A DNA stretch of 64,000 nt from NCBI RefSeq assembly GCF_000217815.1, contig NC_015707.1, positions 1,290,014 to 1,354,013 of the forward strand, read 5' to 3'. This DNA is from Pseudothermotoga thermarum DSM 5069 (GTDB taxonomy: Bacteria; Thermotogota; Thermotogae; Thermotogales; DSM-5069). A program made the position numbers and the translations under genes. Positions 14,447-43,475 of the stretch are shown one piece after another. The notes beneath the pieces were generated by a model that saw only the letters and a list, made by a program, of their open reading frames with translations, had not been told where the DNA came from and ran no database searches. Positions within the stretch are counted from its first letter, which is position 1. Every line of letters begins with the position of its first letter.

Positions 14447-14463
14447 AAACTTTTCTGTGAATT

Positions 14464-14488
14464 AAAGGGGGAGGTCATCTCCCCCTTT
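14464..14488 (+). terminator. Strong hairpin between binding protein and permease genes
   Basis: A perfect 10-bp stem (AAAGGGGGAG and CTCCCCCTTT) with a 5-base loop lies between the solute-binding-protein gene and the dppB-like gene, followed by ATTAAAA. In binding-protein operons such hairpins cause partial termination or stabilise the upstream mRNA, giving more binding protein than permease. Function here is inferred from position. Confidence 0.75.
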
Positions 14489-14509
14489 ATTAAAAGGGGT
14501 GGAAAACCT

Positions 14510-15430
14510 GTGTTGTCTTACATCGTGCGAAGACTTATTCTCGCGATTCCAGTCTTGCTTGGAGTCTCTTTGATCACTTTCATATTGCTGAACGTTGTAC
14601 CAGGAGATCCTGTGCTGGAAATGGTTGGTAAGCACGCTGATCCTGCCACCATAGAGAGAATTAGAAAACAACTTGGCTTGGATGATCCAATAATCGTTCA
14701 ATTTGGAAGATTTATCTTCAACGCCATGCGTGGTGACCTTGGACGCTCATTCAAAACCAACCAACCTGTTATGAAAATGATAATGGATACTTTCCCCACT
14801 ACGGTGAAACTCGCGCTGACTTCAGCAAGTGTGGCAATCGTGATTGGAATAATCGTGGGAATAATATCAGCGGTTAAACAAGATACAATTTTTGACCATA
14901 CAGCAAGAATAATAGCTTTAGCCGGCATTAGTGCGCCTGTTTTCTGGGTTGCGGTGGTTTTTCAACTGATCTTCGGCCTTAAACTAAAATGGTTTCCAAT
15001 ATCTGGTTACGGCACGTGGAAACACATGATATTACCAGCTTTTGTCTTGGGAATAAGATTTGCTGCATCGATTGCTAGATACACCAGAAGCACTCTTCTT
15101 GACGTCATAAGACAAGATTACATTCGAACCGCAAGGGCTAAAGGTCTTTCAGAAAGAGCTGTGATTTTTGGGCATGCACTTAAAAATGCATTGATACCTG
15201 TGGTAACCATTATTGGAATGCAAATAGGGGGATTGCTAACTGGATCTTTTCTGGTGGAAACGATCTTCGCCATACCTGGCTTAGGAAGGTTGTCCATACT
15301 GGCACTCTCGAACCGTGATTATCCACTCGTTCAGGGTACAGTTCTATTCACGGCAGTTGTTTACACGTTGGCCAACTTAATCGTTGACATATCGTACGCC
15401 TTCCTCGACCCAAGAGTTAGGCTTCAATAA
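14510..15430 (+). CDS. Peptide ABC transporter permease (DppB-like)
   Basis: A 306-residue inner-membrane permease with about six membrane segments. The opening IVRRLILAIPVLLGVSLITF and the cytoplasmic loop DYIRTARAKGLSERAVIFGHALKNA (EAA loop, about residues 200-224) are typical of DppB/OppB. GTG start with AAAAGGGGTGG upstream. It is the first of the permease pair; the partner follows 15 bases later. Together with the broken OppD and intact OppF it would form the dipeptide/oligopeptide importer. Confidence 0.93.
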   Translation: MLSYIVRRLILAIPVLLGVSLITFILLNVVPGDPVLEMVGKHADPATIERIRKQLGLDDPIIVQFGRFIFNAMRGDLGRSFKTNQPVMKMIMDTFPTTVKLALTSASVAIVIGIIVGIISAVKQDTIFDHTARIIALAGISAPVFWVAVVFQLIFGLKLKWFPISGYGTWKHMILPAFVLGIRFAASIARYTRSTLLDVIRQDYIRTARAKGLSERAVIFGHALKNALIPVVTIIGMQIGGLLTGSFLVETIFAIPGLGRLSILALSNRDYPLVQGTVLFTAVVYTLANLIVDISYAFLDPRVRLQ

Positions 15431-15445
15431 AGGGGGACAAAAGCT

Positions 15446-16336
15446 ATGGAAAAAAACGTAAAAACTGTTCAAATTTCTTACTGGAAGGATGTTTGGAGAA
15501 GACTTAAAAAGAAAAAGCCGGCTATGTTTGGACTCGTGGTGATAATCATTTTCACGCTGATGGCAATTTTTGCCCCCCTAATAGCTCCAGCAGACCCAAA
15601 CAAAATAGATCTTGACAATCGTCTAAAGCCTCCTGGATCACCTTCGAGAATTTGCAAAAATGGAATTTACATACTTGGTTCTGATGAGTTTGGAAGAGAT
15701 ATATTTTCCAGGATAATTTACGGTTCAAGGATTTCGTTGAGCATAGGAATTTTGACACAGGCAATAGTTACAGTAATAGGAATTGCGATGGGAGCTATAG
15801 CAGGTTATTACGGAGGCAAAATCGATATGATAATAATGCGAGTTGTTGATATACTCTTTGCCTTTCCGGATCTTTTGTTTTACATTGGAATAATGTTTGC
15901 CCTTGGTCCTGGTATTTACAACCTATTCATCGCTATTTCAGTACTTGGATGGGCTAGCAGAGCAAGGTTGATAAGAAGCCAAGTATTAGCGATAAAGGAA
16001 ACCGAATACATCGAAGCAGCAAAAGCCCAGGGGTTGTCTGATTTCAGGATAATCGTAAAGCATATTCTTCCAAACTGTATAGGTGTAATAATAGTTTCCG
16101 TGACACTTGGTATCCCATCCGCGATTTTAACCGAAGCTTCTCTTTCATTCCTTGGCTTGGGCATCCTGCCACCAACGCCAAGTTGGGGAAACATGATATA
16201 TGCAGCAAGGCCTTATCTTCGAGTTAATCCACTCTACTCGGTCTGGCCAGGTATTGCCATCATGCTCAGCGTTTTTGCGTTCAATTTGCTTGGCGATGGG
16301 TTAAGAGATGTCCTTGACCCAAGGATGAGGCAATGA
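15446..16336 (+). CDS. Peptide ABC transporter permease (DppC-like)
   Basis: A 296-residue inner-membrane permease of the DppC/OppC type. The N-terminal cytoplasmic stretch is followed by KKKPAMFGLVVIIIFTLMAI, then the conserved HxLGSDEFGRDIFSRIIYGSR-like segment and the EAA loop EYIEAAKAQGLSDFRIIVKH. About six membrane segments. Ribosome site AAAGGGGG. Its end overlaps the ATG two-residue lead of the following peptidase frame. Confidence 0.93.
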   Translation: MEKNVKTVQISYWKDVWRRLKKKKPAMFGLVVIIIFTLMAIFAPLIAPADPNKIDLDNRLKPPGSPSRICKNGIYILGSDEFGRDIFSRIIYGSRISLSIGILTQAIVTVIGIAMGAIAGYYGGKIDMIIMRVVDILFAFPDLLFYIGIMFALGPGIYNLFIAISVLGWASRARLIRSQVLAIKETEYIEAAKAQGLSDFRIIVKHILPNCIGVIIVSVTLGIPSAILTEASLSFLGLGILPPTPSWGNMIYAARPYLRVNPLYSVWPGIAIMLSVFAFNLLGDGLRDVLDPRMRQ

Positions 16337-16350
16337 TAGGAGGTCGAAAG

Positions 16351-17505
16351 ATGAAGTACAAAATGTTGGTGATAATTTCTCTGATGATCCTTTCAACACT
16401 TTATTTTGGGAGTGATCAAAAAATGGAAAGTACAAAAATTGGGGAAGTCGTAGAAAACGTTAAAAAAACGGTTGAACTGCTGAGAAAGGAAATGAAAATC
16501 GATCCAAGGGAAACCGTGTTTGTATTAAACGTGAAGGAAGAAAGTGGAAAAGTTGTTTTGGAAGGAAAAATAAGTGATATCAATGTCAAAGAAAAGATTC
16601 TAAACGAGATTCAAACAAGGTTCTTAAACGTTGAAATCAAGGTAGAACAGCTTCCATCAAAAAAACTTGGCGAGAAGATTTGCGCTGTGGTGGCTGTTCC
16701 TGTTTTGAACCTTGGAGAAGCTCCGTGGAAAGATCAGGGCAAACATGTTGTTACACAAGCGCGAATGGGTGAGCTTTTGAAACTTTTTGACGAGAAAGAA
16801 GGATGGTACCTTGTTCAAATGGAAGACAACTACCTTGGATGGGTTTACGGCGAGAGAATATGGATTTGCGACGAAAAAGAGTTAAACAAATTTCTTTCCA
16901 ACAAATTTGCCTTGATAACAGCCAAGATGACGCCAGCATTCGCCAGTTTAGACGGTGTTGTGGCCTTCGATAAGCAATTAGTCCAAGGTACTTTGCTACC
17001 AATCCTTGAACATGATGAAAGATGGTCAAAACTTTTAGTTCCAGGTGGCAGAGAAATTTACGTGAAAAGTCAAGACATAAAAGTCTTCCCCACGCGCGAT
17101 GCTGCTTTCAGCGAGAAAAGAGATGCTCAATACATAATCGAGATAGCCAAGCAATACCTGGGCTTACCTTACCTTTGGGGTGGAACAACTGCCTATGGTT
17201 TTGATTGTTCTGGTTTTACGCAGTTTTGCTTCAAGATGGCAGGTTATTTCCTAAGAAGGGACGCCGACATGCAATTCGAACAAGGCATACCGATCATGGA
17301 TAGAAAGGAACTAAAACCGGGAGATTTGGTCTTTTTCCAAACCTACAAACCTGGTCCCTCACACGTTGGAATTTACATTGGCGATATGAAGTACATCCAC
17401 TCCGGAAGTAACGGTGTTGCTATAAACAGTTTTGATCCTTCTGCTCCCGATTATTCCCAAAGCTTGGATCTTAGATACATTGGAGCTAGAAGGATCCTTC
17501 CATAA
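16351..17505 (+). CDS. Secreted NlpC/P60 cell-wall peptidase with SH3-like region
   Basis: A secreted cysteine peptidase. The N-terminal signal sequence [20 protein letters not shown] is followed by a linker, bacterial SH3-like segments (about residues 95-245) and a C-terminal NlpC/P60 domain. Catalytic Cys is in [11 protein letters not shown] (about residue 285), the His in [10 protein letters not shown] and a further polar residue near YIHSGSNGV. Such enzymes cut gamma-D-Glu-diamino acid bonds in peptidoglycan stem peptides. The ATG at 16351 follows AGGAGG; an ATG six codons earlier overlaps the permease end. Its place inside a peptide-transport operon points to wall-peptide scavenging. Confidence 0.9.
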
Positions 17506-18113
17506 ATGGAGGGAACATCGTGGGAGAGAATAAACTGCTTGAAATTAGAAATTTAAGTGTTGAGTTCGCAACTTTTGCAGGAACAGTTCACGCCGTTGAC
17601 AGAGTAACTTTACACATAAACGAAGGGGAAACTGTCGGAATGGTTGGAGAATCTGGTTGCGGTAAATCCACCGTAGCACTTGCCATAATGAGACTTCTGC
17701 CAACACCTCCAGCGAGAATTAAAAGTGGAGAAATAATATTCGAAGGAGAAAACTTGCTCAAAAAATCAGAAGAAGAAATGAGGCAAATCAGAGGTGGAAA
17801 AATCTCAATGATCTTTCAAGAACCTATGACGTCGTTGAACCCAGTTTACACAATAGGAAAGCAAATTTCCGAAGCAATAATTGTTCACAAAAAAAGCCTC
17901 AAAAGAAGAGGCAAAGCAAATGACCATCGAGATGTTAAAGCTTGTGAAAATACCCAATCCAGAGAAAAGATACTACGAATATCCGCACCAACTTTCAGGT
18001 GGCATGCGACAAAGAGTGATGATAGCAATGGCTTTGGCTTGCAACCCAAAACTTTTGATCGCAGATGAACCCACCACCGCTCTCGATGTTACAATACAAG
18101 CTCAAATTTTAGA

Positions 18114-18717
18114 GGACCTGTCAACTTAAGAAGGAAAACTGCACTAATAGAAGAAATGGAAATAGCCACTTAACTATGTCCTCATCCCTCCTCTTGTACC
18201 ATAACCTGCTTATGTTAAAACGCCTCAGCCTGTACCTTTTTATCCCTATCACACTCTCAACAAGACTTCTTTCCCCAAACCTCTCATGCTCGTGTTCCCA
18301 ATATCCCATATTCTTTTTTCTCGCTTCCCAGTACCATGGCCCTGCTTTGCCTTTCTCTCGTGTCTTACTGACCAACGCATAGATCACTTTCTTCCTCTTA
18401 ACCTCATTTATGTTCACCTTCATCTCGTCTATAGCTACTACTGCTTTGCCTTCTATCTTCTCAGCATTCATCCTTGTCCACCATTTCCTCAAGGCTTCAT
18501 GACTGACTCCAATTATGGCTGCTGCCTTCCTTAATGCAAGTTCATACTTTCGCCTCATGTGGAACTCTTTGTCTTTGAAAAAGGTTTGGTATAATTTGGT
18601 ATAGGTACTCGGTGATATTTGTTGTTGTAACTTTCATATTCACGGGAACCTCCTTTCGGTGAGAAGAGTTGGTTCCCGTTTATTTTATCGTATTTCCCGG
18701 CTTAAGTTGACACCTCC
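18114..18717 (-). mobile_element. IS deletion derivative, copy 2 (604 bp)
   Basis: The ends are imperfect inverted repeats: GGACCTGTCAACTTAAG at the left and the reverse complement of GGAGGTGTCAACTTAAG at the right. It is flanked by TTTAGA on both sides (18108-18113 and 18718-18723), a 6-bp direct repeat that restores the oppD reading frame when one copy and the element are removed. It carries one incomplete transposase gene, so it can move only with help from another copy. I place it tentatively near archaeal-type IS6-like DDE elements, but the family is not certain. Confidence 0.9.
18121..18558 (-). pseudogene. Internally deleted DDE transposase in copy 2
   Basis: A 145-codon frame. The start is HTH-like (MRRKYELALRKAAAIIG and EALRKWWTRM), followed by AVVAIDEMKVNINEV, which holds the first expected catalytic Asp. 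It then jumps to PWYWEARKKNMGYWEHEHE, FGERSLVESVIGIKRYRLRR and a hydrophobic tail. Between these, roughly 80-100 residues expected in a full DDE transposase, including the second Asp region, are missing. So it looks like a non-autonomous derivative. Family assignment is inference from motif style. Confidence 0.75.
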
Positions 18718-19127
18718 TTTAGAATTGATATCGGATTTGAAAAAACAATTCAACATGAGTGTATTGTTGATAACCCACAATCTTGGAATAGTTGCGGAAA
18801 TGACGAGTCGCGTCTTTGTAATGTATGCAGGACAACTTGTGGAGGAATCACCCTGCAAGGAACTTTTTGAAAAACCTCTTCATCCTTACACCGAAGCACT
18901 CTTGAAATCTATACCAAGCTTGGAGTCAAAGAAAGGCAGTAAGTTGTACACAATCCCAGGAACGGTTCCAAATCTTTTGGATCCACCTTCTGGATGTCGC
19001 TTTCATCCAAGATGTGAATTTGCAAAAAAGATATGCTCAGAAAAGGTCCCATCACTCACTTTGCAGGACAACGGAAGAAAAGTTAGATGCTTCCTACGTG
19101 GCTCAGAACCCGAGGAGGTGAACACCA

Positions 19128-20105
19128 TTGAGTTTGCGAAAAGTTGTTGAAGTGCGAGGACTTGTAAAATGGTTCCCAGTAAAGACAGGGATTTTTCAAA
19201 ACAAAATCCTTGGTTACGTGAAAGCAGTTGATGAAGTGGATTTTGAAATATACGAAGGACAAACACTTGGCTTAGTCGGAGAAAGTGGTTGTGGAAAAAC
19301 CACGACCGCAAGGTGCATCTTAAGGCTTGTTGAACCAACAAAGGGAGAAATCATCTTCAACGGGATCGACATAACTAAACTCAAGCAAAAAGAACTTAGA
19401 AAGTTAAGGCCTAAAATGCAAATAGTTTTTCAAGATCCATACAGTTCTCTCAATCCAAGGCTTACAGTTAAAGAAATTATCGGAGAGGCTTTGGATTATC
19501 ACGGTATAGCGAAGGGAAAAGAGCTTGAAGAGAGAGTGAAGGAACTTCTGGAAATGGTTGGACTTGCCCCTGAACATATGAGAAGGTATCCCCATGAGTT
19601 TTCCGGCGGTCAAAGGCAAAGAATAAGCATAGCAAGAGCTCTGGCAACAAATCCAGATTTGATCGTTTGTGATGAACCTGTCTCGGCTTTGGATGTCTCC
19701 ATCCAAAGTCAGATACTCAATTTGCTCGAAGAACTTCAGGAAAAATTTAAGATATCTTACCTCTTTATTTCTCACGAGCTAAACGTTGTAAAGTATATCT
19801 CCCATAGAATAGGCGTCATGTATCTAGGGAAAATAGTAGAAATCTGTGACAGCGAAGAGCTTTACACCAATCCATTGCACCCATACACAAAAGCTTTGAT
19901 TTCAGCTATTCCAATTCCAAATCCAAAGGTTAAAAGACAAAGGATAATCTTGGAAGGAGATGTGCCAAGTCCATTCAATCCTCCACAAGGCTGCAGGTTT
20001 ACCCCAAGATGCCGCTATGCCATGGAAATCTGCAAAAAAGAACATCCAAGGTTGATCGAGGTATCACCAAATCATCTTGTTGCTTGTTACCTTTACCAAT
20101 CATGA
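19128..20105 (+). CDS. Oligopeptide ABC transporter ATP-binding protein (OppF-like)
   Basis: A 325-residue ABC ATPase that powers the peptide importer. Walker A is [16 protein letters not shown], the Q-loop region reads [15 protein letters not shown], the signature is [16 protein letters not shown] and Walker B is [12 protein letters not shown]. The C-terminal [20 protein letters not shown] is the oligopeptide-transporter extension with Cys residues. It overlaps the end of the broken oppD by 23 bases, showing tight coupling in the ancestral operon. The start codon is TTG with GAGGAGG upstream. Intact. Confidence 0.93.
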
Positions 20106-32082: not shown

Positions 32083-32982
32083 TCAGCTTTCCACACCCCC
32101 GTTTCTCTCAACAACACGAGTTAATAACCTACAAAACTCGTTTTCATTCTGCTCCACATCAACTGTAATTATACCCAACGAAGTCCTCAACTTCGAGACC
32201 AACGGCGTTAAGTCGACCTTGGAAAGTTTGTAATCGTCAAACCTTTTTTCGGGATAACATGGATTAACCGTTATGCATAAAAGCTTTGGCTTTCTTGATA
32301 GCGATATTTTTACCGTATCCAAAACCCCGTCAAGCATCTTTGGCTCAGCGGATAAAAGAAGATGAAACGGAGATTCAACGACAATTGATTCATCCCTTGA
32401 TTCTAAAAGTTTTTGCAAAGTCACCAAACCACGAATCGTTGGTTTTTCCTTGACTGCGGGCAATTGAAAGACTTTCACGAATACTTTCATTTCCAAAAAA
32501 AGCTCTTCTAAATCTGTACTTTTGGCTGCACCTGTTGCGATCACAACGTAATCGACATGTTGAAAAGGCATCATCCTATTCACCGCACCGTCTATCAAAA
32601 AAACGTCAACGTTATACTCTTGAACTTCTTTCAACGCAGTCAACAAATCTTGGCTTGAGCTTGGTCCAACCAAAACAACCGTGCCAGTTTCTTTGACCTT
32701 GTAAAGTCCAACTTCACCCATTGGAGTTTTGAAGCTTAAAGACTTTAAAAACTCCAACTTTGCCGTAGAATGTTTTGCTGCCTTTGCACTTGTAACAACC
32801 AAACAGCCTTCCTCAACGAAAATCTTTGGCTTTGGTAGGCCAGTTACAAAGTCAAAATCTTCTCCATCAAAACCTATACTCGTTACTGCCAACTTTAAAT
32901 TCGAAAGGCATTTCAAAGCAACGTTTAAAGTCGTTGTTTTACCTGTATTTTTTGCCGTGCCAAGTATTCCTATCGTCAACAT
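32083..32982 (-). CDS. KamB-like P-loop protein, probable mutase reactivase
   Basis: A 299-residue protein starting MLTIGILGTAKNTGKTTTLN, a P-loop (GTAKNTGKTT). A later segment YNVDVFLIDGAVNRMMPF gives a Walker-B-like Asp, and VDYVVIATGAAKSTDLEEL follows. To my memory it resembles KamB, the protein found beside lysine 5,6-aminomutase genes and thought to help reactivate the B12 enzyme. Its ATG overlaps the end of the B12-domain gene, which supports this. ATP or GTP use and the reactivase role are inferred; no search was done. Confidence 0.65.
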   Translation of the reverse strand: MLTIGILGTAKNTGKTTTLNVALKCLSNLKLAVTSIGFDGEDFDFVTGLPKPKIFVEEGCLVVTSAKAAKHSTAKLEFLKSLSFKTPMGEVGLYKVKETGTVVLVGPSSSQDLLTALKEVQEYNVDVFLIDGAVNRMMPFQHVDYVVIATGAAKSTDLEELFLEMKVFVKVFQLPAVKEKPTIRGLVTLQKLLESRDESIVVESPFHLLLSAEPKMLDGVLDTVKISLSRKPKLLCITVNPCYPEKRFDDYKLSKVDLTPLVSKLRTSLGIITVDVEQNENEFCRLLTRVVERNGGVES

Positions 32983-34754
32983 AGTCTTACCGTTCCTCTG
33001 CCGTTTCTTCCTGGATTTGCACCTTCTTCTCTTGTTCCAAAAAGTCCTTCGTACAACGAGGCCACAAAGTCTCCTCGTTCTGCAACTTTTTTCAAAGTAT
33101 CGTATATTCCTTGCTTTATCATTTCAGCGTCCTCAAAAGCTTGTTTGGTTGGTTCTATACTTGCCTGTCCAAAGAATCTGAAAGCTTCCGCAACGGCTCT
33201 CAAAGTGTCAATTCTTGCTGAGCTTGTTATCGCTCCCCTCGCGTAAGCTTCGTCTGTGGAAGCAATTGTTATAGCGTCCAAATTCAACGATTTGGCGAGT
33301 GCAGCGTGTAAAGCCGTCGTCATGGCAGATTGAACCCTGTCTTCCGTGTGCGTCATAAAACCAATCGGTTCACCTGGCCAAATCGGCGCATCGATTATAT
33401 CTCTTAAAGCAAACACCTTTCCCGCATTGTAATCAATGTAGTTGTCTTCCATGTACTTGTTTATCATGACATCCGGCGAATAACAGAACAAAGGTTTCAA
33501 AATTGGTTTTGCACCAAGTTTTACACCAAGGTACGCAACCACAAGCATTCCCGCAAAAGCCTTGTGAGCTGGAACTCCCCCGAGTTCTTCGTTTGTTGGA
33601 ATGTCAAACGGCATTCCATAACGTGCTGCCAATTTGATAGCATAAACCCCATCGACGGTCAGTCTCTCCGGGTCTGTGCCTCCATTCAAAGAACCATAGA
33701 CCATGTTGATCTTCGTCAAATCAGCCCCTGCTTTAGCAGCAAGAACAACTGTTTCAGGTGTGTTCAATCCTCTGTGTGCTCGAACACACCACAACGTCGA
33801 TTCTTCTAAAACGGATTTTATAATCTTCAAATTCTCAAAGGTGATGATCGAACCATCCTCTTCATGTGCAAGAAGTCCAGAAAGAAATCCCTCACACCTT
33901 GCTCCCCAAGAAGGGTCAAAGTGAAGAACACCATCCGCCCCCCAAGCTTCGCTTACTTTTATGTGCATTGCATCCATGAATGGACATCCTGTACCGTACT
34001 GAACAAAAACCAACGGTTTTTCGCCAACATGTCTCAAGGACTTCGGTTCTATTTTTACCTTCATCAAGTTCTCTTTGAACCTTTCGTATTCGTCTTGTGA
34101 AATCAACCGAACATGCTTTGGTAAAACGTTGTTTTTGTAAAACTCCCTGACCAAATCGTCCGACAACTTCAAATAATCTTGCGTCAAATCTTCCCCTTCA
34201 AAAATTCTTTCTCTTATCTTAGCCCTTTCCACACCAGGGCTGGTCCTTCTCTCGGCCCAATTCAATATCTGAGATGTTATCTTCTCAAGCAATTCTTCAA
34301 AGGCTGAATCTTTTACTTTGTACGAATAACCTTGTGTTATGTCAAACTTTTTCTTTTTAACAATCTCTTCCTTCTTTTCAACCGTTCTTCCTTCGACAAA
34401 TTCTATAACCTCTTCCCACTTTGTTTTTTCACCAAATCCGGCGTCATACCCAAGCTCAGCCGCCAACTGCGGTGTAACTGCCTTTCCCCCAACCACCACC
34501 TTGCACTTTTTCCTCAAACCAGCAGCATCTATCAAATCGATGAATCTTCCAAGTATTTCGGCAGCGTTGTAACCTACGGTTCTGCTGACCATTATGTAAT
34601 CTGGGTTTTCCTTCAAACATATTTCAACAACTTCTTCAAGCTTCATATCCGGAGGAAGAAGCACCACATCATGCCCACGCTCTGAAAAAATCCTTCTGAG
34701 AATTTTAACTGCAACATCGTGAACAGGGTCCAAGGGTACCAAAACTATCTTCAT
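32976..34754 (-). CDS. B12-binding mutase-like protein, N-terminal B12 domain
   Basis: A 592-residue protein in two parts. Residues 1-120 look like a cobalamin-binding Rossmann domain: PLDPVHDVAVKILRRIF keeps the VHD of the DxHxxG-type loop, and CKVVVGGKAVTPQLAAELGY is the far end of such a domain. The rest is a large TIM-barrel-like domain with FVQYGTGCPFMDAMHIK, VLHFDPSWGARCEGF and WCVRAHRGLNTPETVVLA, ending EGLFGTREEGANPGRNGRGT. That tail recalls the GIFGG...KGLNG end of lysine 5,6-aminomutase alpha. In known lysine and ornithine aminomutases the B12 domain is separate or C-terminal and carries a PLP lysine, which I do not see. Best guess: an aminomutase-related B12 enzyme of new layout. 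Confidence 0.6.
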   Translation of the reverse strand: MKIVLVPLDPVHDVAVKILRRIFSERGHDVVLLPPDMKLEEVVEICLKENPDYIMVSRTVGYNAAEILGRFIDLIDAAGLRKKCKVVVGGKAVTPQLAAELGYDAGFGEKTKWEEVIEFVEGRTVEKKEEIVKKKKFDITQGYSYKVKDSAFEELLEKITSQILNWAERRTSPGVERAKIRERIFEGEDLTQDYLKLSDDLVREFYKNNVLPKHVRLISQDEYERFKENLMKVKIEPKSLRHVGEKPLVFVQYGTGCPFMDAMHIKVSEAWGADGVLHFDPSWGARCEGFLSGLLAHEEDGSIITFENLKIIKSVLEESTLWCVRAHRGLNTPETVVLAAKAGADLTKINMVYGSLNGGTDPERLTVDGVYAIKLAARYGMPFDIPTNEELGGVPAHKAFAGMLVVAYLGVKLGAKPILKPLFCYSPDVMINKYMEDNYIDYNAGKVFALRDIIDAPIWPGEPIGFMTHTEDRVQSAMTTALHAALAKSLNLDAITIASTDEAYARGAITSSARIDTLRAVAEAFRFFGQASIEPTKQAFEDAEMIKQGIYDTLKKVAERGDFVASLYEGLFGTREEGANPGRNGRGTVRLC

Positions 34755-34993
34755 CGCAAATCCTCTCCTTCAAACCATTGGTACTTATCGCCCGGCCTGT
34801 AAACGTAAGCCCTCAACCTAATTCTGGCTGCAAAGCCGTTGTGCTCTACAAAAACAACATCCACATCTTTGAAACCAAGAGATTTCATCAAACTCAATCC
34901 AAGTTCTCGAGCTTGATCTTCACTTTCGGCAAGTAAGGTTGTTTCCAAATCTATTCCGTCTATTACAAATCTTGAAAAGTCCATCTTCATCAC
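34751..34993 (-). CDS. Small protein upstream of the B12 gene, unknown
   Basis: An 80-residue protein (MKMDFSRFVIDGIDLETTLL, then GFKDVDVVFVEHNGFAARIR and a charged tail). No motif is recognised. Its stop overlaps the start of the B12-domain gene, so it is likely made in step with it and may be a small subunit, as OraS is for ornithine aminomutase, though it does not look like OraS. ATG after GAGGTGATGAAG. Confidence 0.6.
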   Translation of the reverse strand: MMKMDFSRFVIDGIDLETTLLAESEDQARELGLSLMKSLGFKDVDVVFVEHNGFAARIRLRAYVYRPGDKYQWFEGEDLR

Positions 34994-35028: not shown

Positions 35029-36402
35029 CTACATGAGAATCATGGCAACTATAGTTGCTCCAACAAATCCAAGAACCACAGGCACAAAGTTCTTTCTAGC
35101 GATTTCTTCTGGTCTTGTCTTTGTAACACCAGCAACCGCAATCAACGCCCATGGTACAATTGTTCCACCACCGGTATTGACCGCTGTTAGTTGCCCAAGT
35201 GCTGCAAGTACATCGGCTCTAACTTTTGCAGCAACGCTCAACCCACCAGCCAAAGTACCCATGAGTGGTAAACCGGAAAATCCCGAACCATCAAGACCTG
35301 TTATTGCACCAATGACTGCCTGCATTGGCGCCACAGCGAATCGATTCAAAGGAACTTTTTGAGCCAGCGCTTTACACAGATCAAAGAGTAGCTCTCTTCC
35401 AGATTCTCCAAATATTGCTTTTGCCGGACCTCCACCCATATAGAACAAAGCCGCGATTGCAAAAACAGGTGCAAATATCTTTACTCCAAACATGAAACCA
35501 TCTCTGAGAAATTCAACACCCACCTCAAGTCCTTCCGACTTGTACTGAATCAATGTGAAAACAACAAGCAACAAAGCGGCAGAACCACCGAGCAACGCCG
35601 TTGCATCTCCACCTCTGAGTTTCAATGCGAGCATTAAGATGATATTCACAAGGAAGGTCAACGCCACAACAACAGCCTCGACTTTTGCCAAAGTGGAATG
35701 CTTCAAATTCTTATCCTTGAGTATGCTTTCGCCAAATATCTCTATGTCTTTCTTTGGATCATACCCTTTGTTGGCCTTCATTGTGAAGAAATAGGTCAAC
35801 GGAATAGCAATAACCGCCCAAGTGATGATCAACGGAACCATTGCACTCATAACTTGTCCAACGCTAATTCCAGCTGCTTTTGCCGTCAAAGTTGGTGCAC
35901 CTTGAATTACAAAATCTGTTGTCAAAGAGATACCATACGCAAAGATTGCGATGGAAACACCTGTTGCAACGGGGGAAAGTCCCGCGCTGACGGCAACAGG
36001 AACCAACAAACTACCAAGAAGAGCTACAGACGGTGTTGGCCATATGAAGAGCGCAAGAATAGCTGTGATTATTCCAACAAACCAAAATGCTGACTTTGGG
36101 CCTTTGATTGGTTTACCAAGGATACTTATCAAGACTGCTGCTGCTCCACTTCTTTCCATTTGTTTGGAGAGCGCAACCATCAGGGAGATTACCACAACAA
36201 TGCCCATCAGCTCAACTGCTGTGACGACAATCGCGTTGAAAACCGCTTGAACAGCCCCTATAAAGGATTTTGTGACTGCCCAGGCGACGCACAATGCACC
36301 AATCAAACAGATAAGAGGCGTATCTTTGCGTAGAAACATTGTCACGACAACTGCCGCCATGAAGAACAAATAAAGCCAATGAGCTAAGGTAAGTTCCACC
36401 AT
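35029..36402 (-). CDS. Membrane transporter of the operon (ion-transporter superfamily)
   Basis: A 457-residue protein with about eleven to twelve membrane segments. The opening is LTLAHWLYLFFMAAVVVTMF. IWPTPSVALLGSLLVPVAVS and the second-half GGGPAKAIFGESGREL and GAITGLDGSGFSGLPLMGTL look like the two inverted-repeat re-entrant regions of citrate/gluconate-type (GntP, CitMHS) carriers. It lies inside the B12/PLP operon, so it probably imports the amino acid that the operon degrades. Family placement is by pattern only; the substrate is inferred. Confidence 0.75.
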   Translation of the reverse strand: MVELTLAHWLYLFFMAAVVVTMFLRKDTPLICLIGALCVAWAVTKSFIGAVQAVFNAIVVTAVELMGIVVVISLMVALSKQMERSGAAAVLISILGKPIKGPKSAFWFVGIITAILALFIWPTPSVALLGSLLVPVAVSAGLSPVATGVSIAIFAYGISLTTDFVIQGAPTLTAKAAGISVGQVMSAMVPLIITWAVIAIPLTYFFTMKANKGYDPKKDIEIFGESILKDKNLKHSTLAKVEAVVVALTFLVNIILMLALKLRGGDATALLGGSAALLLVVFTLIQYKSEGLEVGVEFLRDGFMFGVKIFAPVFAIAALFYMGGGPAKAIFGESGRELLFDLCKALAQKVPLNRFAVAPMQAVIGAITGLDGSGFSGLPLMGTLAGGLSVAAKVRADVLAALGQLTAVNTGGGTIVPWALIAVAGVTKTRPEEIARKNFVPVVLGFVGATIVAMILM

Positions 36403-36415: not shown

Positions 36416-37705
36416 TTAAACTAATTTGGTGTTGAAAATTGATTGTAATCCGGCTTTTTTAACTCTCTCGCGAATAACTTGAACATCTGTAGTGTACAAA
36501 CCTTTAGCCTTCATTCTTTCAAAGTAAATTGATCCTGAAAAGGTGTACTTGTACTGACGTCCTTCTTCTTTCTTCATCTCACCTATCACATAGTTCACAA
36601 AATCTCCTACAGCCAATTCCCACGGCAACTCCAACAACTTCTCACCTATAGCTTTTCTAACTGCGTTGTGACCAGCCAGGGTACCTGTGACTATGGCTTC
36701 GGTGTGACCGACCATGGCTCCTGCTTTTTCTCCAGCGCAGAACAAATTATCAACAGGACCAATAGCCTGAAGGTGCGTATTGCAATTGGCAAAACCGAAG
36801 AATCTCATAGAATTTCCTTTTCCGCCTGCAATTGGATCCTCATACCTTGCCTTTTCCATTCCCGGTATTTTTCTTAGTCTTTCAAGTGGGAAAAAAGGAA
36901 CCATAAGTTTCGCAGGACCAGTATCGAGCAAAACGAGGTTTTCAATGAATTCCTTAAGTGCATACTGTTGGCAAGCTTTCATTGAAAGCAATTTCTCTTC
37001 TTCTCTGACCGATTCTGGAATAGGTATTACCACACAACCTTTTTCCTCAAGCTCCTTTACAATTTGTGGATCGATGGAATCTTTGCAAAGCTTGCACGAT
37101 CCACTCATTGCGCCAACTGTACCATCAGACTTTTTACCAACCCACTCTTCCACTCCAACTTTTGTCGTTATGCTTATCCTTGGTCCAAAACTGTGACACC
37201 TTAATATGCACATAGCACAGCCGTTGCCGTACTTTGTACAATTTGCTGGGACAGCTGACGTACCAGTCGCATCGACAAAGACATCTCCTTCAACTGGACC
37301 AACGTTTTCAACGACAACACATCTTATTTTGTTGCCTTCTTTAGCTGCATCGATAACTCTTGCATTCGTCATGATTTTGACACCAAGTTCTGTCAAATAA
37401 GACCTCACGGCTGGTTCGATTTTGTAAACGTTGTAAAGACTTGCATGCTTGTGCCCAGGAAATTCGACGTTTTTGTGTGTTGTACAGTTGTCCATCACGG
37501 TGAATATATCCGCACCCATCGCAAGCATTTCCTCTGCAGCTGTGAATCTTCCGTTGTTTCTGAAGATTCCCCCAACTAATCCTGTTCCCAAAAGCATATC
37601 CGTTCTTTCTAAAAGTGTTACCTCGGCACCAGCTTTAGCAGCCGCAGCTGCAGCCGCACAACCTCCCCACCCTCCACCGACAACCACTATTTTTGGCTTA
37701 CGCAA
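36416..37705 (-). CDS. FAD-dependent oxidoreductase with extra cysteines
   Basis: A 429-residue flavoprotein. KIVVVGGGWGGCAAAAAAAK is the N-terminal FAD-binding motif and GPVDNLFCAGEKAGAMVGHT the C-terminal one. Between them are Cys-rich segments GNGCAMCILRCHSF and SGSCKLCKDS that might hold a metal or Fe-S cluster. Similar to the broad FAD_oxidored/GidA-like group. The start is TTG after AAAGGGGG; the gene ends 14 bases before the transporter start. Probably oxidises or reduces an intermediate of the diamino-acid route; the reaction is unknown. Confidence 0.8.
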   Translation of the reverse strand: MRKPKIVVVGGGWGGCAAAAAAAKAGAEVTLLERTDMLLGTGLVGGIFRNNGRFTAAEEMLAMGADIFTVMDNCTTHKNVEFPGHKHASLYNVYKIEPAVRSYLTELGVKIMTNARVIDAAKEGNKIRCVVVENVGPVEGDVFVDATGTSAVPANCTKYGNGCAMCILRCHSFGPRISITTKVGVEEWVGKKSDGTVGAMSGSCKLCKDSIDPQIVKELEEKGCVVIPIPESVREEEKLLSMKACQQYALKEFIENLVLLDTGPAKLMVPFFPLERLRKIPGMEKARYEDPIAGGKGNSMRFFGFANCNTHLQAIGPVDNLFCAGEKAGAMVGHTEAIVTGTLAGHNAVRKAIGEKLLELPWELAVGDFVNYVIGEMKKEEGRQYKYTFSGSIYFERMKAKGLYTTDVQVIRERVKKAGLQSIFNTKLV

Positions 37706-37746: not shown

Positions 37747-38586
37747 TTACCAACTCCAACCGTCTGGCAGAATATATCCTTCTGCAACGACCCTTGCATC
37801 GCCTTCCAAAAAGATCTCAGTTGTCTTTTGACCTTCGATTTTAAAGTGAACCTTGAGTGTTCCACCAAGAACTTTCACAACAACCGGTGGTTTAACTTTT
37901 CCAAGCAAAGTTGAAACAATTGCACAACTCACAGCTCCTGTTCCACACGCGTAGGTTTCATCTTCTACCCCTCTTTCGTAAGTTCGAACGGCTATGGTGT
38001 TTTCATCGATCACCTTGACAAAGTTGACATTTGCTCCTTTTGGAAAAATTTCGGTGCAATATCTGACTTTTCTGCCAAGCTCAACAATTTTTTCATGCGT
38101 CAAGTTTGAAAAATCGTCCACGTAGAAAACCGTGTGCGGAACACCGACAGTCGCAAAGTGGTATTTCTCCAATTCCTCTGAAAATTTATAACTTTGATCA
38201 AGTTGAATCTTTGAAAGATCCACGTCCGGGAATTTAACCCGGACGCGATCTTCCACAACTTCAGCTTCGTAAAGTCCTGCTTTAGTCTCAAAGATCATCT
38301 TTTCCTTTGCAACACCTTTTAAATATGCAAACCTTGCAATGCATCTTGCTCCGTTGCCACACATCTCAGCTTCAGATCCATCGCTGTTGAAATATCTCAT
38401 CGAAAAATCTGCAATTTTGGAATTTTCCAAAACAAGTACTCCATCGGCTCCGAGTGAGAACCTTCGATCGCAGATTTTCTTCACAAAGGCTTTAAGATCT
38501 AGGTTATCGAGAATGCCGTCTCGATTGTCGAAAACTATAAAATCATTACCCGCGCCATTCATTTTTGTGAAAGGAATCTTGTTCAT
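37747..38586 (-). CDS. dapF: Diaminopimelate epimerase family protein
   Basis: A DapF-type epimerase of about 279 residues that inverts an alpha carbon through two cysteines, without PLP. Both are present: AEMCGNGARCIARF (about residue 75) and YACGTGAVSCAIV (about residue 220). FTKMNGAGNDFIVFDNRDG is the usual N-terminus, so I chose the ATG giving MNKIPFTK (38586), which follows GAAGGAA; an ATG eight codons upstream overlaps the PLP gene. Lying in a catabolic-looking operon and not with lysine-synthesis genes, it may act on lysine, ornithine or DAP to supply the D- or L-form to the B12 enzyme. Confidence 0.9.
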   Translation of the reverse strand: MNKIPFTKMNGAGNDFIVFDNRDGILDNLDLKAFVKKICDRRFSLGADGVLVLENSKIADFSMRYFNSDGSEAEMCGNGARCIARFAYLKGVAKEKMIFETKAGLYEAEVVEDRVRVKFPDVDLSKIQLDQSYKFSEELEKYHFATVGVPHTVFYVDDFSNLTHEKIVELGRKVRYCTEIFPKGANVNFVKVIDENTIAVRTYERGVEDETYACGTGAVSCAIVSTLLGKVKPPVVVKVLGGTLKVHFKIEGQKTTEIFLEGDARVVAEGYILPDGWSW

Positions 38587-38606
38587 CAAAATTCCTTCAG
38601 CAACCA

Positions 38607-40070
38607 TCAAATCAACTCCGCGTACTTTGCAACTATTTCTATCAACTTAACCAAACCTCTGACCGCAAGCCTTGTTGTTTCCTCGATTATATCCCCATTT
38701 TCATCCGTTGTACCAAGCCCGAGGGATATGAAAATGTTACCATCGTATGCGATGGTTTGTATTATTCCCATCGCATCCGTTCCGACCTGCAGTATGTTCG
38801 TTCCGGCGTACATGTCTTCGATCGTGAATATCGGGAATGGAACACCTTTTTCCCAACAGTCGTCGTAGTTGATCTCCACGGCAGCGGAGTTGTAACTTTT
38901 GGAAATTTTGAAAATGGGTCTGATCCTCTTGTCGAGCTTGTCGAACTCCTCAACGGTTATCTGGTACAACTTGTCAACGGATGCTTTGATTTTGTCAGCC
39001 CTTTCTTTCAAGACCTTCAAAGCGGCTATAGCTCCTGCCAAAGCTTCTTTACCAGGATCGAAGGTGACGTAGGCTGCTTTACCGTAAGAAGACCAAGTTC
39101 CATACCTGTCACCGTGCGTACCCATAGCTCTTCTCAAGGAAACCATCACATCTTCTCTTCCTATGATCAATCCACAGGTTGGTGCACCTGCTGCTTTGTC
39201 CATGCTGTAAGTCATAACCCATGCGCCGATTTTTCTTGGATCCGTTCCTATGAATGGAAGACCCCATGCGTTGTCAACTATGTAAGGAACGTTGTACTTT
39301 TCAGCAAGCTCACCGATTTTCTTTTGAAGCAATGGTGCGCCATCTTCGGCTTTTTCTCCATAACCATAACCGACTGTGTCATAGCCAAGGCTGCTGAAAC
39401 CTGCCAACGTGTCGATGTACCTCTCAGCAGCTTGCTCGATTCTCTTGGCGGTTTCAATCGCATTCACACCGCTCAAAAGAACTGCAGGATGATATTTTAT
39501 GCCGTGAACCGTGTACCTTGCCCCAGCCATTGGAACGATGACCACATCGACGTTTTCAAGCCTTTTGCCATAAAATCCAAGCTCACCGGCAGTACATCCT
39601 CTGTCGGCAAAAACATCTTTGTAGTAAGGTGGCACAGGCCTTCCATACCCACCGTGGTGGTGAATGTGTCTTTCGTACGGGATTATGTAGCGGCTTCTGT
39701 ACTTGTCTCCCCTACCAGTCAAAGGTGGTGCAACCAAAACATCAAAAGAAAGCCACAAAGCCGCTTCGCATGTGCTCACTAAAAGTGCATCGTAGTCGTC
39801 CCCATAGTAATCTTTGACAATATCCCTTATCTCATCGGCAAAGACTTTATTTGGAATAACCTTTCTTGCGACTGCACTTATGGCTTCATCCACTTCTTTT
39901 GTCAATAGACCATGGCACCCTGAAATTGCTCCAGTGAGACCAAACTTTCCTCTCAGTTCTTGAGGTATACCAATTTCGTCGGCAGCCTTTTTCGCTTCCT
40001 CAAGTATCTTTGGCATTGCCAACTTCAAGTTCTTGTAAAGATGGTACCTGTACTTTTGCATTCTTCTCAC
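38607..40070 (-). CDS. PLP-dependent enzyme of the operon, function unknown
   Basis: A 487-residue fold-type I PLP enzyme. The Schiff-base lysine is K292 in TYSMDKAAGAPTCGLIIG, and VDNAWGLPF gives the Asp (266) that contacts the ring nitrogen. ALLVSTCEAALWLSFDVLVA (about residues 95-114) is the phosphate-binding region, and HHHGGYGRP (137-145) is a striking His-rich loop. The general style resembles SelA/DgaE-like or class V enzymes. The start is GTG at 40070 after AAAGGAG. It is the largest protein of the upstream half of the operon and may be the key lyase, transferase or thiolase-like step. Confidence 0.75.
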   Translation of the reverse strand: MRRMQKYRYHLYKNLKLAMPKILEEAKKAADEIGIPQELRGKFGLTGAISGCHGLLTKEVDEAISAVARKVIPNKVFADEIRDIVKDYYGDDYDALLVSTCEAALWLSFDVLVAPPLTGRGDKYRSRYIIPYERHIHHHGGYGRPVPPYYKDVFADRGCTAGELGFYGKRLENVDVVIVPMAGARYTVHGIKYHPAVLLSGVNAIETAKRIEQAAERYIDTLAGFSSLGYDTVGYGYGEKAEDGAPLLQKKIGELAEKYNVPYIVDNAWGLPFIGTDPRKIGAWVMTYSMDKAAGAPTCGLIIGREDVMVSLRRAMGTHGDRYGTWSSYGKAAYVTFDPGKEALAGAIAALKVLKERADKIKASVDKLYQITVEEFDKLDKRIRPIFKISKSYNSAAVEINYDDCWEKGVPFPIFTIEDMYAGTNILQVGTDAMGIIQTIAYDGNIFISLGLGTTDENGDIIEETTRLAVRGLVKLIEIVAKYAELI

Positions 40071-40071
40071 C

Positions 40072-40506
40072 TCACTCCTTTAGGAAAATTATCAAATCAT
40101 CGACGTTGATCCCCATTTCTTCCCCACTCATACGCTTTTCCACTTTGATAACTATGTTTTCATGGTTTGGCATGTGCGTTTCATCAAAACCAGCGATTCT
40201 TCCAACGGTTTTTCCATCTTGAAGGATTACTTTGTCACCCACAACAGCCACACCGGGATTTAAAATTTCAACAAACGCAAGGTAAGCTATTTTGTTGACC
40301 TCTTTTCCCGGTGCTGCTTCCTGTTCATCGGTGACTATTAACTCGTGTATTTCATACCTTTTCAAAGCTCTTGAAGGCATGGGTATCAAAGAAAGTTTTC
40401 TGTTTTCCAGCTTTCCCCTTAACACTGCCACCACTCTTGCCATGATCACAACTTTTTTGGCGTAGGGATCTTCTTTCAACAAACCACTCGAGTAAGGCTC
40501 AACCAT
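40072..40506 (-). CDS. Small conserved-looking protein of the operon, unknown
   Basis: A 144-residue protein (MVEPYSSGLLKEDPYAKKV and later NPGVAVVGDKVILQDGKTVG). No family motif is clear; the second half looks like a beta-rich small domain. I prefer the ATG at 40506, after AAGGTGATAAAA, over one three codons upstream. It overlaps the ridA end and is followed at once by the PLP enzyme gene, so it is probably its accessory protein. Confidence 0.65.
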   Translation of the reverse strand: MVEPYSSGLLKEDPYAKKVVIMARVVAVLRGKLENRKLSLIPMPSRALKRYEIHELIVTDEQEAAPGKEVNKIAYLAFVEILNPGVAVVGDKVILQDGKTVGRIAGFDETHMPNHENIVIKVEKRMSGEEMGINVDDLIIFLKE

Positions 40507-40888
40507 TTTTATCACCCTTGAAGGCTATTACTTCAATTTCGACTTTTGCACCCTTTGGAAGCGCTGAAACTTGTACGAAGGATCTGGCCGGTTTATGCTG
40601 GTCGAAATACTTGGAATAAACTTCGTTGATCTGCGAAAAATCGTTTATGTCTGTCGCAAAAACCGTTGCCTTGACGACGTTGCTGAGATCACATCCAGCG
40701 GCTTTCAATATGGCTTTGATGTTTTCAAAAATTCTTTCCGTTTGCTTTTTGATATCCCCATCCACGAGTTGACCTGTGGCAGGATCGATTGGTATTTGCC
40801 CTGAAACAAAAACAAACCCGTTGACTTCCACTGCTTGTGAGTAAGGACCTATTGCTTTCGGTGCCTGATCAGTTGAAACAATTTTCAT
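40499..40888 (-). CDS. ridA: RidA family enamine/imine deaminase
   Basis: A 129-residue RidA (YjgF) protein: STDQAPKAIGPYSQAVEVNG at the start, VSGQIPIDPATGQLV, the arginine in ARSFVQVSALPKGAKVEIE and a final EVIAF. RidA hydrolyses reactive enamine or imine intermediates made by PLP enzymes such as dehydratases. In an operon with a PLP enzyme and a mutase it would remove such by-products. AAGGAGGG precedes the ATG. First structural gene after the regulator. Confidence 0.93.
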   Translation of the reverse strand: MKIVSTDQAPKAIGPYSQAVEVNGFVFVSGQIPIDPATGQLVDGDIKKQTERIFENIKAILKAAGCDLSNVVKATVFATDINDFSQINEVYSKYFDQHKPARSFVQVSALPKGAKVEIEVIAFKGDKNG

Positions 40889-40903: not shown

Positions 40904-41572
40904 TTACAACATTGCGTTCTTTTTCGACCTTGCCTCACGAAGGTAAGCATAAATTGTGAACTTCGAATTTCCCATCTCTTTTGCCAACGCTTCAACCGCT
41001 CCTTTGAGCAAGAAAAAGCCTTTTTCATCGAGCTTTCGTATAACTTCTATTTTCTCCTCCTTGGTGGCAAACCTCAGTGGTTTACCCGTTTTCTTTTTAA
41101 CCTCGTCTATGACTTCCAAAAGTAGTTCATCAACTTTTTTTGCAAAACTTTCATGTTCGGCGCCCGTCAGTTCTTCAAGGGTTTGAAAGGTCAAAGCTTG
41201 GTCTATCATCTGCTTACAGATGGAAAGCTTTGTGGTGTCGAAGTTGATGCACAGAAAACCTATGATTTTTCCGCTTTCATCCCTTATGAAAATCGTGGTG
41301 GATTTTAAAATCCTTCCATCCGAAGTCGTGGTCATGTAGTTGGCTATGTAGTCAACATCCTTGAATTTTGGAGACTTTAGAAGATACAAACCAAAATCCG
41401 TCAACGGTGATCCAACGGTCCTACCGGTCACATGACCGTTTTCGATGGCGATAACTGAATGCTCCGGATCAGAAACATCGTGCAAAACTATTTCGTAATC
41501 TGGACCGAGCATCGCGGCCAACCCTTTTGTTATTGGTATCAACGGTTTTAACAACGGATGAACCTTTCTCAT
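40904..41572 (-). CDS. YheO-like PAS/HTH regulator of the operon
   Basis: A regulator of about 222 residues. The N-terminal YheO-type PAS region has LHDVSDPEHSVIAIENGHVTG, GSPLTDFGLYLL and GKIIGFLCINFDTTKL. The C-terminal DNA-binding helix region has EEKIEVIRKLDEKGFFLLKG and FTIYAYLREARSKKN. I chose the ATG at 41572, which follows GGAGGGGATGGGTG; the frame is open far upstream, but that part overlaps the promoter. It is divergent from the LUD gene, and a palindrome sits over its own promoter, so it likely controls itself and the operon. Confidence 0.88.
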   Translation of the reverse strand: MRKVHPLLKPLIPITKGLAAMLGPDYEIVLHDVSDPEHSVIAIENGHVTGRTVGSPLTDFGLYLLKSPKFKDVDYIANYMTTTSDGRILKSTTIFIRDESGKIIGFLCINFDTTKLSICKQMIDQALTFQTLEELTGAEHESFAKKVDELLLEVIDEVKKKTGKPLRFATKEEKIEVIRKLDEKGFFLLKGAVEALAKEMGNSKFTIYAYLREARSKKNAML

Positions 41573-41588
41573 CACCCATCCCCTCCAT

Positions 41589-41617
41589 ATTATACAAAAT
41601 TTTGTATGCTTATTCAA
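41589..41617 (-). promoter_or_regulatory. Promoter of the regulator-ridA-B12 operon
   Basis: On the minus strand TTGAAT and TATAAT are 17 bases apart. The -10 box ends 16 bases before the regulator ATG, so the leader is very short, and the palindromic operator covers the spacer and part of the -10 box. Confidence 0.65.
41592..41607. promoter_or_regulatory. 16-bp palindromic operator
   Basis: ATACAAAATTTTGTAT is a perfect palindrome. It overlaps the -10 box of the minus-strand promoter. Another partly matching site, TTGTACAAGATACAAAAG, lies about 30 bases to the right. Most likely the binding site of the adjacent YheO-like regulator. Confidence 0.75.
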
Positions 41618-41657
41618 CATATTATTGTACAAGATACAAAAGTGAGTCGACCAGCTT

Positions 41658-41687
41658 TTGTCCATGTATTTCAGCAATTTATATTAT
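41658..41687 (+). promoter_or_regulatory. Divergent promoter for the LUD-M20 operon
   Basis: TTGTCC and TATTAT, 18 bases apart, lie 38 bases before the LUD gene's GTG start. It shares the intergenic region with the regulator's promoter and operator. Confidence 0.5.
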
Positions 41688-41725
41688 GATAGTCTTAGGA
41701 ACAAAAACATTCGGAGGTGAATTGT

Positions 41726-42358
41726 GTGAGAGAACAACTTTACCAGTTCAAGTATCAAAAACTTTGCGAAAAGATAAAACCGATTCTTGAAAGGAAAAAG
41801 TTTGAAGTCTACATAGCAAAGGATGCCGCTGAAGCTAAACAGATAGTTGAAAGTTTAATCCCAGAAGGAAGTGTTGTCAGCTCTGGCGGATCTGTCACTT
41901 TGGTTGAAACAGGAATATTGGACTTACTTAGAAGCGGAAAGTACAAATTTTTGGATAGGTACAACGCTCCAGACAGAAGAAAGGTTGAACTTGAAGCAAT
42001 GAGTTGTGATTATTACCTTTGCAGTGCAAACGCAATAACTTTGGACGGAGAACTTGTCTTCATGGATGGATTTGGAAACAGAGTGGCAGCTGTGACCTTT
42101 GGTCCTAAGAACGTTATCTTGGTTGTCAGCGCAAACAAAATTGTGAAGGATTTACAAGAAGCACGCGAAAGAATACGGTACATTGCGCCGATGAACGCAA
42201 AAAGGCTGTCGCTTTCAACTCCCTGTGCAACCACAGGTATTTGTGAAGATTGTGCTTCCCCACAGAGAATATGCAGACATTTTCATGTTATAAACGATTC
42301 TTACAATCTTCCTGGAAGAATTAAGATCATTTTAGTGTTGCAGGAACTCGGTTTGTAA
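41726..42358 (+). CDS. LUD domain protein
   Basis: A protein of about 210 residues of the LutC/YkgG (LUD) family: EAKQIVESLIPEGSVVSSGG, ETGILDLLRSGKYKFLDRYN and VVSANKIVKDLQEARERIRY. LUD proteins act in lactate or related acid oxidation, but single-gene forms are of unknown role. A C-terminal Cys group (STPCATTGICEDC and SPQRICRHF) is typical of the longer type. The frame is open from 41717; the GTG at 41726 (VREQLYQF) follows GGAGGTG. First gene of the plus-strand operon facing the B12 operon. Confidence 0.85.
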   Translation: MREQLYQFKYQKLCEKIKPILERKKFEVYIAKDAAEAKQIVESLIPEGSVVSSGGSVTLVETGILDLLRSGKYKFLDRYNAPDRRKVELEAMSCDYYLCSANAITLDGELVFMDGFGNRVAAVTFGPKNVILVVSANKIVKDLQEARERIRYIAPMNAKRLSLSTPCATTGICEDCASPQRICRHFHVINDSYNLPGRIKIILVLQELGL

Positions 42359-42392
42359 TGAAAAAGTTGTAAAATGAGTTAAGGTGAAAAAT

Positions 42393-43475
42393 ATGGAAAA
42401 ACGTTTGATAGAACTCTATGAAAGATTGGTTAACACAGATACCGGCTTTGATATAGATTATTCGACAAAACTTGCTAGAACAAGCTTTGTTGTTGATGAA
42501 CTTAGGAAATTAGGTTTTTCAGCTCACCAAGAAGAAGCCGCTCATGTTGCCATTTTAGGCGAACCCCCATACATAACTTTGATAGGCCATCTAGACACTG
42601 TTTTTAAGGAAGGCGAATCATCCAAAAGACCTTTCAAAGTAGTTGATTCAATTGCCTATGGACCAGGCGTTGCAGACATGAAAGGTGGAATTATCGTCCT
42701 TTTGAAGGTGGCAGAAGAAGCTGTGAAAAGTGGAGTAAAGAACCTTTGCATAATTATGAACGTCGACGAAGAACTTGGATCAAAAGCCAGCAGGAAAACC
42801 TTCTATGCCTACGCCGAAAAAAGTCTGTGTTGCCTTTCCTTCGAACCTGGTGGAGAAAACGGATCATTGATTCTAACTAGAAAAGGTATTGTTCCTACAA
42901 ACCTTTATGTTAAAGGTATCAAAGGGCATGCAGCAAGGTTGCACGAAGGTGCAAATGCCATCTTGGAAGCCGCAAGGAAGATAGATCAAATATACTCGCT
43001 CAACGGCAAATTCGGTTCTGTTACACTCAACCCCACTTTGATAAACGGCGGTGAAAAATCGAACATAACGCCAGATTCCTGCAAAGTTTACTTTGATATT
43101 CGCTACCTTGAAAGAAATGATTTCGAAAAATGCAAGCTGGCTCTTGAAAAAATATGCTCTGAAACAACTGTCCCTGGAACAAGCTGTCAAATCGAGTTTG
43201 AAGAAAGCCGTCCTTCGATGACCCTTCATCCAAAGATGAAGGAAGCCGTTGAAAAGGTATTAAACAAGCTTGGAATAAACGTTGAATTTGAACATTCCAG
43301 CGGTGGTGCAGACAGCGCCTTTTTCTCACAAGCTAACGTACCGACTTTGGACGGCCTTGGAATCTGCGGAGGTAAATTCCATTCAGAGCAAGAATTCGCG
43401 CTTTTGGACACCTTTGAACCGAGGGTGAAAATAGCGCTAGAGCTTATCAGGTACTTTTCGGAGGTGAAAGAATGA
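42393..43475 (+). CDS. M20-family metallopeptidase
   Basis: A zinc exopeptidase or deacylase of the M20 family (ArgE/DapE/CPG2), about 360 residues. TLIGHLDTVF holds the first metal His and Asp, YGPGVADMKGGIIVLL the bridging Asp, and MNVDEELGSKASR the catalytic Glu-Glu. SSGGADSAFFSQANVPTLDG is the C-terminal ligand region. I chose the ATG after AAGGTGAAAAAT. In this place it may release a diamino acid from an acylated or peptide form; the substrate is inferred. Confidence 0.88.
   Translation: MEKRLIELYERLVNTDTGFDIDYSTKLARTSFVVDELRKLGFSAHQEEAAHVAILGEPPYITLIGHLDTVFKEGESSKRPFKVVDSIAYGPGVADMKGGIIVLLKVAEEAVKSGVKNLCIIMNVDEELGSKASRKTFYAYAEKSLCCLSFEPGGENGSLILTRKGIVPTNLYVKGIKGHAARLHEGANAILEAARKIDQIYSLNGKFGSVTLNPTLINGGEKSNITPDSCKVYFDIRYLERNDFEKCKLALEKICSETTVPGTSCQIEFEESRPSMTLHPKMKEAVEKVLNKLGINVEFEHSSGGADSAFFSQANVPTLDGLGICGGKFHSEQEFALLDTFEPRVKIALELIRYFSEVKE

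Follow-up and report, generated by a model that had tools for sequence, protein, structure and literature searches.

A Pseudothermotoga protein with a cobalamin domain ahead of an aminomutase-superfamily barrel, possibly a PLP-independent mutase

A single-copy gene in the 2.04-Mb genome of Pseudothermotoga thermarum DSM 5069 encodes a 592-aa chain in which a cobalamin-binding domain precedes a barrel of the KamD/OraE type. It lies in a 64,000-nt stretch of contig NC_015707.1, referred to here as the window. This B12-barrel protein very probably belongs to the lysine 5,6-/ornithine 4,5-aminomutase superfamily. Our main reading, to which we give a probability of roughly 0.5, is that it is a PLP-independent AdoCbl mutase for a diaminopimelate (DAP)-like substrate; PLP independence, substrate class, reaction and the role of the neighbouring KamB-like protein are all inferred.

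The coordinates and reading frame of the gene (Table 1) were exact on re-check, and across 9/9 orthologues the start Met is identical and the alignment gap-free. The cobalamin domain (aa 1 to ~125) is followed by OraS/KamD-N-like helices (aa ~148-181), a TIM-barrel region (aa ~240-530) and a KamD-like C-terminal tail running to aa 592. This domain content and order are well supported by the sequence and the architecture is real; as far as we searched, a B12-first arrangement of this kind has probably not been described. Purifying selection on the gene is strong, with the barrel as its most constrained part: compared with its relatives, barrel dN was ~0.11-0.14 with synonymous changes near-saturated, and dN/dS was about 0.02-0.05 in close pairs.

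A preliminary description had proposed an N-terminal B12 domain (residues 1-120) followed by an aminomutase-like barrel whose tail recalls lysine 5,6-aminomutase alpha. Both proposals held. Residues 7-111 match Pfam B12-binding (E=1.6e-13), and the KamD tail falls within the long profile alignment given below. In the profile search proposed at that time, B12-binding was thus matched, while Lys-AminoMut_A was not significant and MutE stayed below its cut-off. A full-length match to a characterised B12-free enzyme, named in advance as what would refute the assignment, was sought and not found.

The nearest B12 domain is that of KamE (NCBIfam E=6.4e-15; PDB 8t0v_C E=3e-11), followed by that of OraE (E=1e-8). 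His12 aligned with the cobalt-ligating His of KamE and is invariant in 9/9 orthologues; the Asp at position -2 of the DxHxxG motif is replaced by Pro. E502 aligns with OraE E338, a glutamate contacting AdoCbl at the adenosine ribose and promoting Co-C cleavage (PMC4413051), and a KamD Glu (LTEAIHTP) lies within the region aligned around E502. The KamB-like neighbour and the adenosyltransferase gene cobA present in the genome are consistent with use of AdoCbl. A search of the window for cobalamin riboswitches returned none. We consider it likely that the protein is an AdoCbl radical enzyme; AdoCbl-dependent isomerisation is inferred, without an assay.

Relationship of the barrel to the aminomutases was examined by several profile comparisons. 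With a profile of residues 130-592 (9 sequences) against 30 KamD sequences, hhalign gave E=1.9e-5 over 418 columns, spanning the N-terminal helices (TSPGIERAKIR / TTVSVERTITR) through the C-terminal tail. A second run was weaker (E=6.4e-4, 120 columns only); hhalign was thus unstable and the relation to KamD must be regarded as remote. The absence of a significant Pfam Lys-AminoMut_A match on the protein (and anywhere in the genome) likewise places the homology as remote. The strongest evidence came from a barrel-only HMM run with HMMER on 2251 distinct ORFs of the fetched loci: besides itself, it retrieved at E<1 only KamD (best E=3.7e-7), OraS (1.1e-4, located on the helical segment) and OraE (0.009), the identity of these matches being judged from loci and ORF lengths. 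NCBIfam Lys_5_6_beta reached 55.5 bits against a cut-off of 280, and the OraE profile NF040743 33.7 bits against 800, in the B12 region only and with no full-length match. An AlphaFold2 model built with four sequences was of low confidence (mean pLDDT 43). Since homology is remote and the model poor, the residue correspondences given here rest on sequence alignment.

In KamDE the PLP ligands are K144 (of KamE), R184, S189, R268, S238, Y263 and N299, and K629 is the equivalent lysine in OraE (PMC3958899). The preliminary description had reported that the PLP lysine is not seen. This was confirmed: counted from the cobalt His, KamE K144 aligns with Phe/Leu23, the nine-residue stretch after it is missing from this B12 domain, and the Schiff-base lysine is absent. 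The change goes further and reaches most residues of the PLP pocket. In a control alignment of KamD with OraE the phosphate loop is kept (IRSTGQS / IRTLGQS), and HMMER and MAFFT alignments are gap-free across this loop, where the B12-barrel family reads LHFDPSWGARCEG, so that R184 becomes D280 and S189 becomes A285; the earliest hhalign run had placed a gap inside it. The second phosphate Arg, R268, is replaced by G358 (HMMER and MAFFT). The S238/S162 position corresponds to R328 in the OraE HMMER alignment or falls beside a gap in MAFFT, and the counterpart of N299 is ambiguous (N388 or E389). The PLP-stacking Tyr263/Tyr187 is retained as Y353, invariant in the nine, and is the sole clear remnant of the site, with N388 possibly another.

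Thus most of the PLP pocket is altered while B12 features are retained, which makes loss of PLP likely as far as alignment can tell. Because the changes extend beyond the lysine alone, a PLP-type aminomutase activity appears unlikely. That the protein actually works without PLP is an inference, which we consider more likely than not. By alignment, the OraE carboxylate ligand H182 is replaced by K348 and its substrate ligands R297 and Q299 by W459 and G461, respectively; R286, R325 and R328 are invariant in nine orthologues. The new conserved Arg and Lys residues may indicate an acidic substrate held without PLP, their role in binding being inferred. A dicarboxylate substrate would account for these basic residues.

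The operon order in P. thermarum is YheO-RidA-DUF6917-PLP-DapF-FAD-CitMHS-79aa-B12barrel-KamB. The stop of the 79-aa gene overlaps the B12-barrel start codon (ATGA) and the KamB-like gene overlaps its stop. The 79-aa protein resembles known dimerisation domains weakly (Pfam OAM_dimer E=0.023; best non-self matches of its family HMM, KamE E=0.019 and OraE E=0.067), and it is possible that it supplies the one absent from the 592-aa chain. Together with the B12-barrel and KamB-like genes it would provide the parts of KamDE/OraSE in a new order, its own assignment being weak. In eight relatives DapF immediately precedes the 79-aa gene, whereas in P. thermarum it lies two genes further upstream. 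It reads GVPH in place of the GNPH of other DapFs in 9/9 genomes (37747-38610 and loci L095-L102), and because Val replaces this Asn its substrate may not be DAP. The preliminary description had left it undecided whether a PLP enzyme in the operon cooperates with the B12-barrel protein or is unrelated: it is a separate fold-type-I-like protein (Aminotran_5/SelA-like) of a YheO-RidA-DUF6917-PLP-FAD-CitMHS unit, and we saw no sign that it supplies PLP to the B12-barrel protein. The divergent LUD and M20 genes span 41717..43475 (+). At another locus (L131, G056:C26) the same unit has a carbamoyltransferase-like and an M20 gene upstream, and the contig ends before the DapF/mutase site.

Table 1. 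Features of the window discussed in the text
Feature	Coordinates	Strand	Basis
592-aa B12-barrel protein (P0001)	32976..34754	-	B12-binding, KamD/OraS/OraE profile matches
79-aa protein, putative separate OAM/KamE-type dimerisation domain	34751..34990	-	weak profile matches
KamB-like reactivase	32083..32982	-	NF052386 194.7 bits vs cut-off 210; position conserved in relatives
DapF-type epimerase	37747..38610	-	TIGR00652, 257 bits; only DapF in genome
Transporter, CitMHS-like	35029..36402	-	E=2.4e-4, below cut-off; conserved neighbour
FAD-dependent oxidoreductase (GIDA/FAD_oxidored-like)	36416..37705	-	profile match; conserved neighbour
PLP enzyme, Aminotran_5/SelA/DgaE type, weakly assigned	38607..40070	-	profile matches
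DUF6917 protein	40072..40515	-	profile match
RidA-family enamine/imine deaminase	40499..40888	-	profile matches
YheO-like PAS/HTH regulator	40904..41677	-	profile match
LUD-domain protein	41717-42358	+	divergent, conserved
M20 peptidase, carboxypeptidase-G2-like	42384-43475	+	divergent, conserved
meso-Diaminopimelate dehydrogenase	11911..12822	+	TIGR01921, 302.6 bits; link by co-occurrence, by position in three relatives
Peptide ABC transporter genes and NlpC/P60 endopeptidase (16333-17505)	12863..20105	+	downstream of meso-DAP dehydrogenase

The B12-barrel gene is present in 9/11 genomes of the Pseudothermotoga family, the eight other full-length homologues being 76-79% identical, and none was found elsewhere among 103 genomes of the phylum. 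A short-peptide seed scan of GTDB contigs returned three loci, all Pseudothermotoga/Thermotogota, and a seed search of viral contigs and plasmids returned no relatives. Whole-genome comparison was confined to one phylum and distant relatives in others are not excluded. The gene for meso-DAP dehydrogenase occurs in all nine genomes carrying the B12-barrel gene and in neither of the two lacking it; one of these two is 71% complete, its contig ending at the expected site. In three relatives the dehydrogenase (TIGR01921 283 bits; PDB 3wb9 E=1e-99) adjoins DapF or is two genes away, in an operon that also carries a multi-subunit amino-acid dehydrogenase, a TAXI-TRAP transporter and a racemase-like protein. 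Dehydrogenase, peptide uptake and NlpC/P60 genes follow in the same order in P. thermarum and three relatives (four genomes), and DapF is retained in the B12-barrel operon across three genera. Lysine synthesis is also encoded in these genomes, which carry dapA and lysA, so that a biosynthetic role for DapF and the dehydrogenase is possible. No relevant papers on DAP catabolism or on Pseudothermotoga cobalamin enzymes turned up in the open-access literature searched. A DAP-related substrate is an inference that we would place just short of an even bet.

Several other genes in the window appear interrupted or fused. An oligopeptide ABC ATPase (17520-18068 and 18659-19150, +) is apparently interrupted by a transposase-like ORF (18121-18558, -), and a P-type cation ATPase is apparently split into an N-terminal half (Cation_ATPase_N, E1-E2; 31073-32068, -) and a C-terminal half (21709-23325, -) ~7.7 kb apart. 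A class-V aminotransferase/cysteine-desulfurase-like gene occupies two overlapping frames (23592-24428 and 24271-24825, +), both matching Aminotran_5, which suggests a frameshift. A membrane transporter, judged MATE-like by eye, appears as two fragments (25670-26110 and 26387-27046, +), and by eye 44851-45660 (+) is an AcpS (holo-ACP synthase)-FolK (HPPK) fusion.

KamDE is similar in several respects: KamE has the closest B12 domain, the N-terminal helices, barrel and C-terminal tail are homologous to KamD, and a KamB-like partner is present. KamDE carries dimerisation and B12 domains on KamE with helices and barrel on KamD, whereas here B12 comes first on a single chain, dimerisation is putatively left to the separate 79-aa protein, the PLP Lys and most PLP ligands are lost and identity is ~23%. 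With OraSE the protein shares a B12 domain, OraS-like helices, a homologous barrel and the E338 equivalent, with a racemase and a dehydrogenase nearby; there, the helices are on separate OraS, and OraE carries barrel, dimerisation and C-terminal B12 domains together with PLP Lys629. Glutamate mutase (MutS/MutE) also combines a B12 domain and a barrel without PLP and shares barrel-loop arginines (by eye only); membership was rejected on score (PF06368, 12.3 bits against a cut-off of 26.6). Uncharacterised Thermotogota proteins of 541-574 aa (L075-L094) likewise begin with a B12 domain that precedes a mutase-like barrel, and kinship of the barrels was not supported, as the profiles do not match. 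This other family is widespread in Thermotogota; part of the protein is MutE-like, scoring as high as 35.9 bits with PF06368, and at several loci an ATP-grasp ligase-like gene is its neighbour.

In our main reading, the B12-barrel protein would be the catalytic subunit of an AdoCbl-dependent mutase of the lysine-5,6/ornithine-4,5-aminomutase superfamily, in which the B12 domain of KamE has been relocated ahead of the KamD barrel, leaving dimerisation to the separate 79-aa protein. AdoCbl would be bound base-off with His12 as lower ligand. Upon substrate binding, the B12 domain would close over the barrel, E502 would contact adenosine, and, as in OraE, homolysis of the Co-C bond would generate the 5'-deoxyadenosyl radical. 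PLP, which KamDE and OraSE use, would no longer be bound by the barrel; K348, R286, R325 and R328 would hold the substrate directly and a rearrangement or elimination would proceed without aldimine. Glutamate-mutase-like fragmentation or elimination are possible PLP-free routes for migration of an amino group or carbon fragment. The substrate is probably, by inference, a DAP stereoisomer or close derivative that scavenging of cell-wall peptides and the DapF-type epimerase would provide. The meso-DAP dehydrogenase would act in the same pathway and the KamB-like ATPase would repair the cofactor.

The most serious rival is a PLP-dependent aminomutase with a remodelled pocket and another lysine (K348, K420, or K17 or K91 of the B12 domain), shifting an amino group on DAP, lysine or a similar diamine. 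This remains possible: superfamily members of known function are PLP aminomutases (PMC3958899), the stacking Y353 is invariant and several lysines are too. A grouping of racemase, aminomutase and dehydrogenase also resembles the ornithine pathway. Against it stand the exchanges of phosphate-site Arg for Asp and Ser for Ala in a gap-free block, of the second phosphate Arg for Gly and of the pyridine-N Ser for Arg, and the deletion after the lysine.

The substrate could instead be unrelated to DAP, the protein being an AdoCbl-dependent ammonia-lyase or carbon-skeleton mutase (for an amino-dicarboxylate taken up by the CitMHS-type carrier, for example) and DapF and the dehydrogenase mere biosynthetic neighbours. 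The presence of dapA and lysA, the single-copy DapF with its altered GNPH motif and the conserved unit running from YheO to CitMHS alongside would agree with this. We find it unlikely, given that DapF stays in the operon across three genera, that the dehydrogenase accompanies the mutase in 9/9 genomes (within the operon in three) and that such a dehydrogenase suffices on its own to provide meso-DAP for lysine synthesis. A non-catalytic cobalamin-binding regulator or a degenerate mutase would be consistent with the lost PLP site, and B12 domains do occur in sensors; retention of E502 and His12, purifying selection that is strongest in the barrel and the overlapping reactivase-like gene make it very improbable.

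A bolder version of the PLP-independent mutase reading, possible at best, is that a PLP-free superfamily member rearranges DAP within an anaerobic route of DAP use (epimerase, B12 mutase, dehydrogenase), parallel to and distinct from ornithine fermentation. No B12 reaction acting on DAP is reported in the open-access literature searched. Joint action of B12 and B6 has its textbook example in the lysine and ornithine aminomutases. If a relative has kept the B12 radical machinery without the B6 site, it would help to trace how evolution brought the two cofactors together or separated them and, if the link to DAP is true, would reveal how anaerobic thermophiles exploit peptidoglycan amino acids.
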